64,000 nucleotides of DNA. It comes from Paenibacillus psychroresistens. Its GTDB lineage: Bacteria > Bacillota > Bacilli > Paenibacillales > NBRC-103111. Positions 5,109-52,573 of this stretch are shown here, in pieces. The number at the start of each line of letters is the position of its first letter. Positions within the stretch are counted from its first letter, which is position 1. A model generated the notes under the pieces. The model was given only the letters and a program-made list of their open reading frames with translations. It was not told the origin of the DNA and did not search any database. The stretch lies in assembly GCF_009728935.1 (NCBI RefSeq), contig NZ_CP034235.1, positions 4,316,001 through 4,380,000 on the forward strand, in the 5' to 3' direction. The position numbers and the translations under genes were made by a program.

Positions 5109-5187
5109 CAGAGGTTTTCTTTAGAAAACCAGCTTCGTAAGCATGGACAGGGCTTTCGCAAGAAAGCGAGCATTGTAAGCATAAGCT
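5109..5187 (-). repeat. Hairpin repeat array A (two units) in the dacB-spmA gap
   Basis: Two units in tandem. Hairpin one: GGTTTTC, loop TTTA, GAAAACC (5113-5130), followed by CGTAAGCAT (5136-5144). Hairpin two: GCTTTC, loop GCAA, GAAAGC (5152-5167), followed by TGTAAGCAT (5174-5182). Both arms change together between units, so the fold is preserved. On the transcribed (minus) strand the last hairpin ends three bases before the spmA GGAGGG. The same unit occurs at 29.76-29.85 and 40.34-40.44 kb. Confidence 0.85.
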
Positions 5188-29754: not shown

Positions 29755-29855
29755 AAGAGTTTTCGTTAGAAAACTTTCTTCGTAAGCACCAGCTGAGTTT
29801 TGCGTTAGCAAAACTTGCATCGTAAGCATAATCTGAGTTTTCGCTAGAAAACTTA
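29755..29855 (-). repeat. Hairpin repeat array B (three hairpins) in the yicC-remA gap
   Basis: Three hairpins: AGTTTTC-GTTA-GAAAACT (29758-29775), AGTTTTGC-GTTA-GCAAAACT (29796-29815), AGTTTTC-GCTA-GAAAACT (29836-29853), separated by CGTAAGCA (29781-29788) and CGTAAGCAT (29821-29829). On the minus strand the array begins inside the yicC stop codon and ends just before the remA ribosome site, so it fills the whole gap. The G-C to C-G closing changes are compensated. Confidence 0.88.
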
Positions 29856-32698: not shown

Positions 32699-33535
32699 CT
32701 AGATTTCCACCGATCCTTTATAAACTTCCTGCGCGGGTCCAGTCATATAAACATGATTGTCCACTTCATTCCATTCAATAAATAAATTACCGCCTTTTAA
32801 GGAGATCGTAGCTTCACGATCCGTTACTCCATTTAGCACAGATGCAACTAAAGTAGCACAAGCACCAGTTCCACAAGCCAATGTTGGACCCGCTCCGCGT
32901 TCCCATACACGCATATCCGCATAATCACGAGATTTAACGGTAACAAATTCTACATTGATTTTACGTGGAAACATTGGATGAGTCTCAAGCTTAGGGCCCC
33001 AAGTTTGCAGATCCATATTAATCGCATCATCCACGTAAATCACACAATGGGGATTGCCCATTGACACGGCTGTAAAGCGAAATTCACGCCCATCCACTTC
33101 AATTGGATAATCCTTAACAATGTCTTGATCCACAGTCGTTGGTACTTGAGTACCTTTTAGAATCGGTTGTCCCATATCGACGCGAACGGTATCAACTTTG
33201 CCATCCTTGAGAAATAGCTGCACATTTTGTTTGCCCGCGCCGATGGTTTCAATCGAAATTTCCGTTTGCCCAATCATTCCATGATCATAAACATATTTAG
33301 ATACACAACGAATCGCATTGCCGCATTGCTCAGCTTCCGATCCATCTGAATTCATAATTCTCATCATAAAATCTGCTTTTTCTGAAGGCAGAATATACAC
33401 CAATCCGTCAGCACCAATTCCAAAAAAACGATCACACAGCTTGATAGCTAATTCAGCTGCCTGTTCAGGTAATTTTGGCTCGCCAGTAACTATAATAAAA
33501 TCGTTGCCTAATCCATGCATTTTTGTAAAATTCAT
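32699..33535 (-). CDS. dapF: Diaminopimelate epimerase
   Basis: 278 residues from the ATG at 33535, nine bases after AGGGGTG; an in-frame GTG at 33547 is a poorer start. Both catalytic cysteines are seen, in SEAEQCGNAIRCV and GPTLACGTGACATL, as well as the N-terminal FTKMHGLGNDF. It converts LL- to meso-diaminopimelate for lysine and peptidoglycan synthesis. The 5' gap contains one copy of a 74-base repeat. Confidence 0.95.
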   Translation of the reverse strand: MNFTKMHGLGNDFIIVTGEPKLPEQAAELAIKLCDRFFGIGADGLVYILPSEKADFMMRIMNSDGSEAEQCGNAIRCVSKYVYDHGMIGQTEISIETIGAGKQNVQLFLKDGKVDTVRVDMGQPILKGTQVPTTVDQDIVKDYPIEVDGREFRFTAVSMGNPHCVIYVDDAINMDLQTWGPKLETHPMFPRKINVEFVTVKSRDYADMRVWERGAGPTLACGTGACATLVASVLNGVTDREATISLKGGNLFIEWNEVDNHVYMTGPAQEVYKGSVEI

Positions 33536-33578
33536 TGTAGGATACACCCCTGATTATAATATGTGTAAGGATAAAAGA

Positions 33579-33652
33579 CTACGCCGTCATTCTGAAAGAA
33601 GACGGTCCTTTTGTCCGAAAATATAAGATCTGTATATAGGTGAAACTTATAC
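33579..33652. repeat. 74-nt structured repeat, copy 1 (upstream of dapF)
   Basis: Same length as the copy at 52195-52268 and 66 of 74 bases identical, with no gap. It contains a first hairpin (CCGTC/GACGG, 33584-33605) and a second stem TATAAG/CTTATA (33622-33651). Four of the eight differences to copy 2 fall in the first stem and preserve or improve pairing. No ORF. A TATAAT lies about 20 bases further, toward dapF. Confidence 0.85.
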
Positions 33653-33733
33653 AATCTTATATTTTAAAGACATTTAGACTTTATCATATCGTAAAACCTT
33701 GGGAATGCATAGCCTTAGGCAAGCATTTACTAT

Positions 33734-36508
33734 CTAACGAGTTACAGACTTTGTACGATAGCTTAATCTCTTACGGCTTGAAGGAGTTTGGAGCACACTG
33801 CCAATCCCCATTAAGAATGTTGGGATACCCGCTGCAATCAAGACAAGAATCCAATCCTCCCAGTCCAGTGAAACGGTTTTGAAGATCGGTTGAAGCGCGC
33901 TAATATATAAGACCCCAAGCAATAGAACCACTGAAGAGAATACGGAAACAACCAAATATTTATTCTGAAAAGGATTGCGATGAAAAATCGAGCGCGAGCT
34001 GCGGCAATCAAATACATGAATTAACTGAGCCATGACTAAAGTTGCAAAAGCAACCGATTGGGCTTTTAATAAACTAGCTGCATTATCAGGCAGACTATGC
34101 AGAGTCAACCAAAAAGCTCCAAGTGTACATATCCCGATTAAAAATCCTCGACTAATTATTTTCCAGCCTAATCTTCGCGCAAATATATTTTCTTTAGCCG
34201 AACGCGGATGATGCTGCATTAAATCTTTTTCAGCTTGATCGACACCAAGTGCCATCGCAGGCAACCCATCGGTTACCAGATTGACCCACAAAATTTGAAT
34301 CGGCAGTAAAGGCAAAGGCAGAGCAAGCATCATCGCGAAAAACATCGTCAGAATTTCTCCAACATTGGATGCAAGCAAATAACGAATGAATTTACGAATA
34401 TTCTCATAAATACCGCGACCTTCTTCAATCGCTGCAACAATCGTTGCAAAATTATCATCGCTGAGAATTAAGGATGACGCTTCCTTAGCCACGTCTGTCC
34501 CACTAATCCCCATGGCAATCCCAATATCCGCCGCTTTAATCGCTGGTGCATCATTAACTCCATCTCCTGTCATGGCTACAACATGTCCTTTACGCTGCAA
34601 GGCTTTGACAATATTAAGCTTATGCTCAGGAGATACTCGCGCATATACATAAACATCCTCAACTACAGCATCTAGCTGCTGCTCATTCATCAAAGCTAGC
34701 TGTTTGCCCTCTAAGGTTAGTCCCTTTGGCGGCAGCATCCCCAATTGTTTAGCAATCGCTTCAGCCGTTGTACGATGATCCCCTGTAATCATTATGGTAC
34801 GAATGCCAGCTTTTCTGCATTTACTGATAGCTTCCCGCACTTCTTTGCGAGGTGGATCGATCATCCCCGTTAGACCGATGAAGACTAAATTACTCTCGGC
34901 CTGATCTGCTTGGTCTAATGTTTCAGCTGTTTTCATTTCGCGATAAGCCATACCTAACACCCGTAGTGCCGACCTCGCCATGCCTTCATTAGCGGACATC
35001 ACTTTATTGCGCAATGTAGCCGTAAACGGAATGACTTTGTTATCCCAGAGAATGTAATTACATTGATCTAATAGAACATCTGGAGCGCCTTTGGTATAAA
35101 TCAAAGCTCCACCCGGATAGGTCACTGCAATTGACATCCGTTTACGATCGGAGTCAAAAGGGAATTCTTTCGTACGTTGAAACCCCTGCAGAGCAGCTTC
35201 ATTAACTCCGGCTTTGGCTCCTAGGACTACTAAAGCCCCTTCCGTTGGATCTCCTTTAATACTCCAAATATGATTGGCTGCTTGCTTACCCTTTTTCCCG
35301 CTTGCTTCAACCACTTCTTCGTTCAAAGTGGCATTATTGCAGAGAACCGATGCATGCATCAACCTCCGCAGCATCTCATTGTTGCGGATAGAGACTGGAC
35401 TTCCTTCACCAGTTATCTCACCATTAGGATCATAGCCATCTCCAGTCACCTCTAACACTTGCCCGCCTAACCAAATATGTGTAACGGTCATTTTATTCTG
35501 AGTCAAAGTACCTGTTTTATCCGAGCATATTACTGAAGCACAACCTAATGTCTCTACGGATGGCAGCTTTCGGACAATTGCCTTGCGTTTAATCATCCGT
35601 TGAACGCCTAATGCTAACGCTATAGTAACAATCGCTGGCAAGCCTTCTGGAATGGCTGCTACTGCTAAGCTAACTCCTGAGAGGAACATCGAGTAAGGTG
35701 GCTGTCCGTGTAAAATCCCTGCTACAACGACAAGAATAGTTAGGCCAATTGCAACCACAATCAATATTTTACCTAGCTGCTCCAACCTGTGCTGCAGCGG
35801 AGTTTCCATCGATTCTGTCCCTTGGATTAAGCCAGCGATTTTTCCCATTTCTGTTTTCATTGCTGTGCGAATAACAATGCCTGTTCCTGTACCGCGTGTC
35901 ACCATTGTCCCCATAAAACCTAAATTCTTCTGATCACCAAGCGGCAGTAGATCGTCGGAAATAGGTTCTGTATGCTTATTAACCGAAATCGACTCACCGG
36001 TAAGCGCTGATTCTTCCACATAAACACTATTCGCTTTCATCCATCGAATGTCTGCAGGTATGCGATCTCCGCTCTCCAATACCACTAAATCACCGGGTAC
36101 CAGCTCTTTTGCCGGAATCTGATGAATAGTTCCTTCTCGAATAACTTTTGCTGTCGGAGCCGATAACGCCTTTAACGCAATTAACGAACGTTCTGCACGA
36201 AACTCTTGCACAAACCCTAGGACACCATTCATCACAATGATCGCGACAATCGTAATCGCATCTAAGTATTCGCCTAATAACCCTGAGATTAAAGTTGCTC
36301 CCATCAGCACCAAAACCATAAAATCTTTAAATTGATTCAAAAGCAATTTGATTGATGATGCTCGCTTTCCTTCTGAGAGTGCATTCTCCCCTACAAGACC
36401 CTTGCGTTTATTTGCTTCTTCCCAATGTAATCCCTGCGTTGGCAGTGTTTGCTGCTCGTGTAAGGTTTCGTTTACGGATAATTGGTATTCTTGCTTCTGC
36501 TGCTCCAT
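33734..36508 (-). CDS. yloB: P-type calcium-transporting ATPase (YloB type)
   Basis: About 924 residues from the ATG at 36508 (CAAGGAGG upstream; frame open to 36541). A P2A-type cation pump: ALTGESISV (actuator), phosphorylation site CSDKTGTLTQNKM, KGDPTEGAL (nucleotide domain) and MTGDGVNDAPAIKAADIG, with ten expected membrane segments; the fourth segment PEGLP is present (VAAIPEGLPAIV). In B. subtilis YloB is a calcium pump expressed during sporulation. It lies next to rqcH (YloA) as there, in divergent orientation here. Confidence 0.93.
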   Translation of the reverse strand: MEQQKQEYQLSVNETLHEQQTLPTQGLHWEEANKRKGLVGENALSEGKRASSIKLLLNQFKDFMVLVLMGATLISGLLGEYLDAITIVAIIVMNGVLGFVQEFRAERSLIALKALSAPTAKVIREGTIHQIPAKELVPGDLVVLESGDRIPADIRWMKANSVYVEESALTGESISVNKHTEPISDDLLPLGDQKNLGFMGTMVTRGTGTGIVIRTAMKTEMGKIAGLIQGTESMETPLQHRLEQLGKILIVVAIGLTILVVVAGILHGQPPYSMFLSGVSLAVAAIPEGLPAIVTIALALGVQRMIKRKAIVRKLPSVETLGCASVICSDKTGTLTQNKMTVTHIWLGGQVLEVTGDGYDPNGEITGEGSPVSIRNNEMLRRLMHASVLCNNATLNEEVVEASGKKGKQAANHIWSIKGDPTEGALVVLGAKAGVNEAALQGFQRTKEFPFDSDRKRMSIAVTYPGGALIYTKGAPDVLLDQCNYILWDNKVIPFTATLRNKVMSANEGMARSALRVLGMAYREMKTAETLDQADQAESNLVFIGLTGMIDPPRKEVREAISKCRKAGIRTIMITGDHRTTAEAIAKQLGMLPPKGLTLEGKQLALMNEQQLDAVVEDVYVYARVSPEHKLNIVKALQRKGHVVAMTGDGVNDAPAIKAADIGIAMGISGTDVAKEASSLILSDDNFATIVAAIEEGRGIYENIRKFIRYLLASNVGEILTMFFAMMLALPLPLLPIQILWVNLVTDGLPAMALGVDQAEKDLMQHHPRSAKENIFARRLGWKIISRGFLIGICTLGAFWLTLHSLPDNAASLLKAQSVAFATLVMAQLIHVFDCRSSRSIFHRNPFQNKYLVVSVFSSVVLLLGVLYISALQPIFKTVSLDWEDWILVLIAAGIPTFLMGIGSVLQTPSSRKRLSYRTKSVTR

Positions 36509-36732
36509 TTGATTGCCTCCTTGAGTAATTTCGCCAAACAATAAAAACTTTTATCGGATAACCTATAGAGTTTTCTGCAAAAACTAGGGACAGACTCTTA
36601 GCGTAAATGTATTCAGACAAGCTGCAAATTATCCCTCAAGGGAAAAAATAGGTATACTAAAGCTATAGCTTAAGTTTTTCTGCAAGATGTGGCATTATAT
36701 AGAATAGCTTTGTACAAGAATGGAGATTGGTT
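36509..36732. other. Divergent yloB-rqcH control region
   Basis: 224 bases between two outward-facing genes. It contains one degenerate copy of the hairpin repeat (AGTTTT-CTGCA-AAAACT, 36569-36585, with GCGTAAATG following at 36601) and two TATA-like boxes toward rqcH (TATACT near 36652 and TATATAGAAT near 36695). No ORF. Confidence 0.5.
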
Positions 36733-40341: not shown

Positions 40342-40438
40342 CAGAGTTTTCTTCAGAAAACTCACATCGTAAGCATAAACCTAGTTTTCTTTAGAAAACT
40401 CACATCGTAAGCATAAACCTAGTTTTCGTTACAAAACT
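40342..40438 (-). repeat. Hairpin repeat array C (three hairpins) upstream of the LysR gene
   Basis: Hairpins GAGTTTTC-TTCA-GAAAACTC (40344-40363), AGTTTTC-TTTA-GAAAACT (40383-40400) and AGTTTT-CGTTAC-AAAACT (40421-40438). The first two are each followed by CACATCGTAAGCATAAACCT, giving a 38-base unit. On the transcribed minus strand the last hairpin is followed at once by TGAGGAGG, the ribosome site of the LysR gene. Confidence 0.9.
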
Positions 40439-51763: not shown

Positions 51764-51801
51764 AAAAAAACGAAGTAACCTCGGCGGTTACTTCGTTTTT
51801 T
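51764..51801. terminator. Bidirectional terminator between cax and ylaN
   Basis: Stem AAAAAACGAAGTAACC / GGTTACTTCGTTTTTT with a loop TCGGC, in a convergent gap; T runs on both strands. Confidence 0.92.
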
Positions 51802-52087
51802 ACAGCTTAATGTCCAAAGCTTCGTATAATTGAGCAAGATTGCGTTCAAGCTTACTTAGGATCATTTTGCCTGCCTGATCTGCAACTAACCCTGCGCGAA
51901 TTGCAAAATCTACCTCTCTTGATAAGCCGTACATTTGCGTATCCAATACTTCTTCGTACAATGGACATTTACGTGTGGTTAAATTCTCCATTTGAACTTC
52001 GATCAGCTTGGCAATTTTATCGGCATCTTCTTGAAGAAGATTATAGGCTCTTATGTTTAAATTGATCATTAATTCAGATGATGACAT
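51800..52087 (-). CDS. ylaN: YlaN family protein (DUF1507)
   Basis: 95 residues from ATG at 52087 (GGGGGG-type ribosome site). Conserved stretch [20 protein letters not shown] matches YlaN, a small protein reported to bind Fe(II) and relieve Fur repression in Bacillus and Staphylococcus. The frame is open to 52150 but the extension is not supported. The upstream promoter TTGTGT-17-TAAAAT (52129-52157) is plausible. Confidence 0.93.
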
Positions 52088-52128
52088 TCCGCTTCCCCCC
52101 ATTACGTTAACAATAATCCTTACCCCAT

Positions 52129-52157
52129 ATTTTAGTCGAAAACCAAGCAATACACAA
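52129..52157 (-). promoter_or_regulatory. SigA-like promoter for ylaN
   Basis: TTGTGT (52152-52157), 17-base spacer, TAAAAT (52129-52134) on the minus strand, about 40 bases before the start. Confidence 0.5.
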
Positions 52158-52194
52158 GAGAATCCCTATTTCCATTATACGCAAGTATAAACAG

Positions 52195-52268
52195 CTACGC
52201 CGCCTTTCTGAAAGAAGGTGGTGCGTTTGTCCGGAAATATAAGAACTGTATATAGGTGAAACTTATAC
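52195..52268. repeat. 74-nt structured repeat, copy 2 (upstream of ylaN)
   Basis: Eight differences in 74 bases to copy 1 and no gap. First hairpin: CCGCCTT/AAGGTGG (52200-52221); second stem TATAAG/CTTATA (52238-52267). The first stem gains a T-A pair and changes T-A to C-G compared with copy 1. Lies between the HPr-like gene's terminator and the ylaN promoter, and a TATAAT appears about 15 bases after it on the minus strand. Confidence 0.85.
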
Positions 52269-52283
52269 TTACTTAAATTTCAA

Positions 52284-52317
52284 AAAAAAGGCACCCCTTC
52301 AACAGGGGTACCTTTTT
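52284..52317 (-). terminator. Terminator after the HPr-like gene
   Basis: Stem of 12 pairs in 13 positions (AAAAAGGCACCCC with GGGGTACCTTTTT), loop TTCAACA; on the minus strand it follows the HPr-like stop by about eight bases and ends in T residues. Confidence 0.82.
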
Positions 52318-52324
52318 AGACCAT

Positions 52325-52573
52325 TTAATCGTTTACAACTTGAATTTTCATTTCGTGTTTAACAAAAACGTCCTTAATGGCTTGCTTCGCTTCTTCAGCA
52401 TCTGGACCATGTACATGCAGATTATATTCTCCTGCTTGCAGCAAAGTTGTGAATAATCCTAGAATACTTTTTACATCGATAAATTTGTTTTCAAACTGCA
52501 ATACAATTGACGAACGAAATTTGTTGGCTGTTTGCGAGATTTCAACAATCGCAGCGTTATTCGAGTTTGACAT
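52325..52573 (-). CDS. HPr-like protein without the catalytic His
   Basis: 82 residues with an HPr fold: the IDVKSILGLFTTLLQAGEYN segment keeps the Ser (Ser46 region) and its neighbours, and the EEAKQAIKDVF helix is typical. The HARPA-type His15 site is absent; that part reads QTANKFRSSIV. It therefore cannot accept phosphate from enzyme I at that residue. It may be a regulatory cousin, as Crh is in B. subtilis (which has Gln there), but even the flanking pattern is different. Function is unknown. Start ATG with GGAGGG. Confidence 0.75.
   Translation of the reverse strand: MSNSNNAAIVEISQTANKFRSSIVLQFENKFIDVKSILGLFTTLLQAGEYNLHVHGPDAEEAKQAIKDVFVKHEMKIQVVND

Follow-up and report, generated by a model that had tools for sequence, protein, structure and literature searches.

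The repeat described here occurs twice in a stretch of 64,000 nucleotides from Paenibacillus psychroresistens (NZ_CP034235.1, positions 4,316,001 to 4,380,000; hereafter the window) and is probably a small mobile DNA element of the Paenibacillales, one that is non-autonomous and inserts beside transcription terminators. The dispersal of its copies, their presence or absence at orthologous sites, their clean ends and their position next to terminators point to a mobile DNA element and not to a small RNA, a riboswitch or a promoter element. A first-pass annotation of the window had reported a structured repeat of 74 nt at 33.6 and 52.2 kb, and both copies were found where it placed them, in the same orientation, with 66 of the 74 positions identical and with the differences it had listed. 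The repeat is real, but the 74 nt are only the middle of a unit of about 99 nt (99–102 nt by genome searches), from which the long outer stem of the first hairpin had been cut off. The full unit runs from 33566 or 33567 to about 33664 in copy 1 and from 52182 to 52280 in copy 2; in a repeat search within the window the similarity of the two copies reached about 121 nt at 79%. It consists of the tetranucleotide [C/T]AAG followed by two hairpins, H1 and H2, in fixed order and orientation (consensus CAAGGATAAACGGCTACGCCGTCTTTCTGAAAGAAGACGGTGCGTTTGTCCGGAAATATAAGATCTGTATATAGGTGAAACTTATACTTTCTTATATTT), with a length of about 88–104 bp. The unit has no coding capacity, and its ends, CAAGGATAAACG and CTTATATTT, do not form inverted repeats.

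Similarity searches of the unit through its own genome (G000; 8.1 Mb, one contig) gave expect values (E) down to 1.8e-28 (3.0e-24 for the 52-kb copy), which excludes a chance resemblance of the window copies. The first-pass annotation had allowed for the case that the genome held no other copy; a first covariance model gave 47 matches below E = 1e-4, and the total is about 50, nearly all of them intergenic. A second covariance model, for which 38 copies were taken from seven genomes, detected the unit in 147 of the 399 genomes sampled within the order, and these fall in 20 of 50 genera. It is densest in genus g32, where two complete genomes have 96–97 matches each, and the named carriers are Paenibacillus species, among them P. 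contaminans, P. piri and P. alkalitolerans. Two matches, in Ruegeria and Ruminococcus, were discarded, being to the 23-base pattern and not to the element. As the annotation had supposed, the repeat is no known riboswitch: no Rfam family matched the element at gathering or at loose thresholds. The sole Rfam match, a c-di-GMP-I riboswitch (L079, 1623–1709, minus strand), lies outside the element, adjoining the right side of a copy in G045. No description of such repeats in Paenibacillus was found in a literature search whose reach did not extend to subscription literature, and the family seems to be undescribed in the literature searched; the small non-autonomous mobile palindromic repeat is, as a kind, already known.

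Empty sites, target and orientation

Genomes G335 and G177 are syntenic and about 95% identical, and they differ by the presence or absence of a single unit at seven sites and by one tandem (one further candidate site is not clean). At two of these sites the gain or loss is exact, AATAAT^GAAAAAGG (save one homopolymer A) and CACTAA^TGAAAAAGGG; ^ marks the position of CAAG...CTTATATTT in the filled state. No target-site duplication was seen in the flanks or in the empty and filled pairs; a YAAG repeat at one site, considered as a duplication, is best explained by a YAAG target that adjoins the CAAG of the unit. In an alignment of one site from six species, G335 and G099 are filled and G045, G177, G239 and G077 are empty; A-tract and terminator hairpin are both present at all four empty sites. 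The site orthologous to copy 2, the gap between ylaN and the gene for an HPr-like protein, lacks the unit in the congener G001 and in G003, yet the A-tract and terminator hairpin are present there. Head-to-tail tandems have the direct junction ...ACAATT/CAAGGATAAACGG... (AATT/CAAGG, the slash marking the junction) and a period of 88 nt, with three tandem units in P. contaminans and, at a site that has one unit in G335, two in G177. Of the options offered by the first-pass annotation, the short mobile repeat is the one that agrees with dispersed copies, presence and absence at orthologous sites, clean insertions and tandem units. Also in G177, at about 1.065 Mb (L358, 2818–2897), a perfect palindrome made of an H1 end and its reverse complement (CAAGCAAAAACGCC...GGCGTTTTTGCTTG) occupies a place where G335 has a normal unit, and is a possible snap-back product.

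The surroundings of the unit differ between its two sides. On the right (H2) flank, A is found at about 73–79% in positions +3 to +6, and a minimum free energy of -10 or lower was obtained for 42% of the 45-nt right flanks against 13% of the left flanks and 9% of shuffled sequences (p = 3e-9). Long perfect GC-rich stems were counted 21 times on the right, once on the left and never in the shuffles. In about 79 of 100 copies the gene on the right is directed towards the unit, and its stop codon often lies 20–60 nt away; in the minority orientation the unit is often placed between a stop codon and the gene's own terminator, with its right end still at the A-tract. At one position in each of G335 (3540672+/3540806-) and G177 (3492092+/3492226-) two copies flank a single bidirectional terminator, their H2 ends towards it. 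The target tetranucleotide varies (TAAA 24, AAAA 14 and TTAA 11 of 140), and the simplest common target would be 'xAAx then hairpin'. The CAAG-H1 left end is also of this form, and this would account for tandem insertion.

An association with terminators might also come from selection or from leading-strand gene bias, if random insertions survived in harmless 3' regions. Intergenic 3' regions are indeed tolerant, and the orientation of the unit follows the replichore. However, it is the right end and not the left that lies within a few bases of the A-tract, the paired copies just described approach one terminator symmetrically, and A-tract and hairpin are already there at the empty sites, which makes this explanation unlikely.

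The orientation of the copies flips near mid-chromosome in three complete genomes, from 2+/28- to 33+/7- in G335, from 4/25 to 44/7 in G177 and from 9/23 to 18/0 in G000, and the flip marks their two replichores. The window lies just past the switch in G000 and is therefore probably near the terminus. Leading-strand gene bias together with terminator targeting could explain most of the flip; an alternative source of the bias may be lagging-strand targeting as in IS200/IS605, which inserts into the lagging-strand template (PMC6006769). As a sole cause, replication-strand targeting is not separable from gene direction.

Proposed insertion, candidate enzymes and related systems

In the reaction that we propose, the unit inserts exactly at the 5' border of a short A-tract, which typically precedes an intrinsic-terminator hairpin, a site equivalent to one just downstream of the T-tract of a gene's terminator. 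Alternatively, it enters before the CAAG-H1 hairpin of another copy and gives rise to tandems. Most likely, an enzyme encoded elsewhere would recognise 'xAAx + hairpin' in single-stranded DNA, both at the end of the element (CAAG-H1) and at the target (A-tract and terminator hairpin), and would cut beside the hairpin site and insert the unit there, as in the systems of IS200/IS605 or of repetitive extragenic palindromes (REPs). This analogy with HUH-like, single-stranded transposition is drawn because terminal inverted repeats and target duplications are lacking, a hairpin stands at each end and another stands beside the target. A function for the host is not needed to explain the element. More tentatively, with a modest chance of being right, the units may form a terminator-homing family moved either by a host factor or by an enzyme that belongs to none of the known classes (Y1/Y2, DEDD and DDE). 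This factor or enzyme would recognise single-stranded 'A-tract + hairpin' in element and target, and every intrinsic terminator of the cell would then be a landing pad. An abundant small repeat that chooses terminators in a large applied bacterial group offers a testable case of structure-guided insertion, and the exact pairs of empty and filled sites define the insertion reaction to the base.

Several points weigh against insertion beside terminators by such a reaction. Copy 1 has no adjoining canonical terminator, none having been found between it and the P-type cation ATPase gene, and a strong right-flank hairpin is missing in half of all copies, so that the A-tract itself may be the target. 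At the other sites of the G335/G177 comparison there are one or a few extra changes, mostly at the left junction, and one right-hand tetranucleotide differs (ATAG/TTAA). Presence and absence are compatible with precise loss as well as gain, both being counted here as mobility, and the replichore-linked orientation (61 of 70, 69 of 80 and 41 of 50 copies in G335, G177 and G000, respectively) is confounded with gene orientation. Finally, the single-strand step is an analogy, and no mobilising enzyme was identified in the searches for Y1, Y2 and IS110 transposases.

In these searches, the Y1 transposase (PF01797) was absent from five of the seven copy-rich genomes checked (G000, G335, G177, G126 and G045), while the positive controls matched. 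The Y2 transposase of IS91-type elements (PF04986) was not found in G000, G335, G045, G031 or G017, and the DEDD transposase of the bridge-RNA family IS110 (PF01548) is absent from the copy-rich G017 (P. contaminans) and present in six other genomes. All three were rejected as partner enzymes, their presence being inconsistent and their loci without clear element ends; a copy beside a Y1 fragment in P. contaminans (L192) proved to be an ordinary complete unit. The 2.6 Mb of DNA searched for an autonomous form, with a gene lying between the two hairpins, showed none, and apparently solitary H1 matches are mostly units with a diverged H2.

The absence of Y1 genes bears directly on the possibility that the unit is a REP or REPIN-like element moved by a REP-associated tyrosine transposase (RAYT, TnpAREP) or another Y1 (HUH) transposase of the genome. 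Both kinds of sequence are non-autonomous, high-copy extragenic palindromes with a tetranucleotide at the hairpin foot (here CAAG), no target duplication and replichore-linked orientation, REP features being taken as given in PMC6006769 and PMC3733652. The tag, however, is CAAG and not GTAG or GTGG, the two hairpins are unlike and in direct order where REPs are inverted, the units lie beside terminators, and the five genomes lack the Y1 class to which RAYT belongs, though G335 and G177 differ by recent insertions; this origin is decidedly unlikely. CGTC-tagged REPs, in the text searched of PMC3733652, provide a precedent for palindromic repeats described without a dedicated transposase; they differ in tag and structure, and Paenibacillus is not mentioned in that portion. 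IS200/IS605 and its non-autonomous derivatives resemble the unit in having a hairpin near each end, no terminal inverted repeats, no target duplication and insertion polarity, and perhaps in an orientation linked to replication direction, but their target is a fixed tetranucleotide where here it is an A-tract and hairpin, and TnpA is absent from five of the seven hosts checked. Firmicutes have other short, structured repeats dispersed through their genomes, some of them modular or arranged in tandem, such as BOX, RUP and SPRITE of pneumococcus and Bcr1 of Bacillus cereus; going by description, BOX and RUP differ in carrying terminal inverted repeats and target duplications (PMC3049150).

Hairpin pairing and the readings as RNA

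In an alignment of the 38 copies from seven genomes, standard pairs occupy 91% of the pair cells against 83% in shuffles. Of the 23 pairs, 15 contain double changes; double-change cells number 54, where shuffles give 11.9, and this covariation lends strong support to both hairpins. As a control the partner was slid by one base, upon which paired cells fell to 39–45%. The outer stem of H2 alone appears among copies as AAATATAAG/CTTATATTT, AATTCTAAG/CTTAGAATT, AATTATAAG/CTTATAATT, AAATATCAG/CTGATATTT and AAAGATAAG/CTTATCTTT. The first-pass annotation was right that pairing is kept between the window copies, as seen in the inner stem of H1 (CCGTC/GACGG in one, CCGCC/GGTGG in the other), which contains two of the changes it had noted, T-A to C-G (a double change) and G-C to G-T. 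For its second stem, TATAAG/CTTATA, a better pairing exists: AAATATAAGA (33618–33629) pairs with the outer 3' arm TCTTATATTT (33654–33665), and the inner CTTATAC pairs with GTATA. RNA pairing is expected to tolerate G.U more than A.C. The mismatches in H2 are 16 G.T and 16 A.C (small numbers), an equality which suggests that no strand is preferred as RNA and which fits a DNA hairpin.

A transcribed cis-regulatory or small RNA kept for its function, such as a stabiliser in a 3' untranslated region or an antitermination element, would account for the strong covariation, for a folding z-score down to -7.6 on the plus strand and for the position by gene ends. Nevertheless, the unit is missing without other change at orthologous sites of close relatives, occurs in both orientations, shows no link to gene function, does not favour G.T over A.C and matches no Rfam family, so that such a role is hardly probable. 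The small RNA put forward by the first-pass annotation falls on these same points, orientation and gene linkage not being constant. A promoter-linked element, its other suggestion, fares no better: the TATAAT is present near both copies but lies outside the unit and is lacking at other copies, and a promoter scan did no better than on shuffles. The element gives a reason for not annotating structured, conserved 'RNA-like' repeats near Paenibacillus gene ends as riboswitches or small RNAs.

Group IIC introns (PMC7923331) likewise target the stem-loop and T-tract of intrinsic terminators in a fixed orientation, and the orientation of the unit relative to the T-tract would fit a derivative of such a retroelement reverse-splicing after terminator hairpins. 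That descent is very improbable, since the unit has only about 99 nt, contains neither a reverse transcriptase nor a ribozyme and has a GUGYG 5' end in neither reading direction, Rfam recognises in it no catalytic hairpin of the domain V type, and G.T does not exceed A.C. The element works like REP/REPIN and IS200-type sequences and shares the target of group IIC introns, yet departs from each in a defining trait (tag, enzyme, catalytic RNA). Least credible of all is a classical miniature inverted-repeat transposable element mobilised by a DDE insertion sequence, which would also be short, non-coding, palindromic, dispersed and of high copy number, but would not agree with ends that are not inverted repeats and with empty sites free of duplication.

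The window copies and other repeats

The features of the two window copies are collected in the table. The leftward genes dapF and ylaN lie beside the repeats as first annotated, with their starts towards the left ends. A GC-rich stem followed by a T-run was not found inside the unit in copy 1, and at copy 2 the only one is the adjacent terminator.

Table. Coordinates of the mobile units, their hairpins and adjoining features in the window, and of copies with an additional hairpin (last row)
Feature	Position	Strand	Remarks
Mobile unit, copy 1 (TAAG + H1 + H2)	33566..33664	+	R1 model score 118 bits over 33567-33668; ends set by comparison with empty sites in relatives
Hairpin H1 of copy 1	33569..33616	+	outer stem GGATAAAAG/CTTTTGTCC, inner CCGTC/GACGG
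Hairpin H2 of copy 1	33618..33665	+	outer stem AAATATAAGA/TCTTATATTT, inner GTATA/TATAC
Mobile unit, copy 2 (CAAG + H1 + H2)	52182..52280	+	R1 model score 108 bits over 52183-52284
A-tract at right end of copy 2	52282..52289	+	complement of the terminator T-tract of the HPr-like gene (insertion target)
Bidirectional intrinsic terminator of the HPr-like gene	52290..52317	.	adjoins copy 2
P-type cation ATPase gene	33734..36541	-	3' end towards right end of copy 1
dapF	32699..33547	-	5' end towards left end of copy 1
HPr-like gene	52325..52573	-	3' end towards right end of copy 2
ylaN (PF07408)	51800..52150	-	5' end towards left end of copy 2
Copies of the extra-hairpin subfamily	G000:C1:5865360, 5852827, 279743; G001:C244:8776, C123:21367		

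In the subfamily of the last row, the apical loop of H1 holds an extra hairpin of 30–40 nt around GCTAACGAGTAACAATATTGTTACTCGTTAGC, whose arms covary. A second repeat family, made of tandem units of about 40 nt (GTTTTCnTTAGAAAACTnnCATCGTAAGCATAAnCT), is also intergenic and occurs in the window at 5114–5165, 29759–29850 and 40346–40435. A motif related to this tandem repeat, TTCGAAGAAAGCGACTTCGTAAGCATA, is found within the H1 loop of the 102-nt mobile unit in P. contaminans (L262, L274, L282, L310 and L331), and one repeat is therefore nested in the other.
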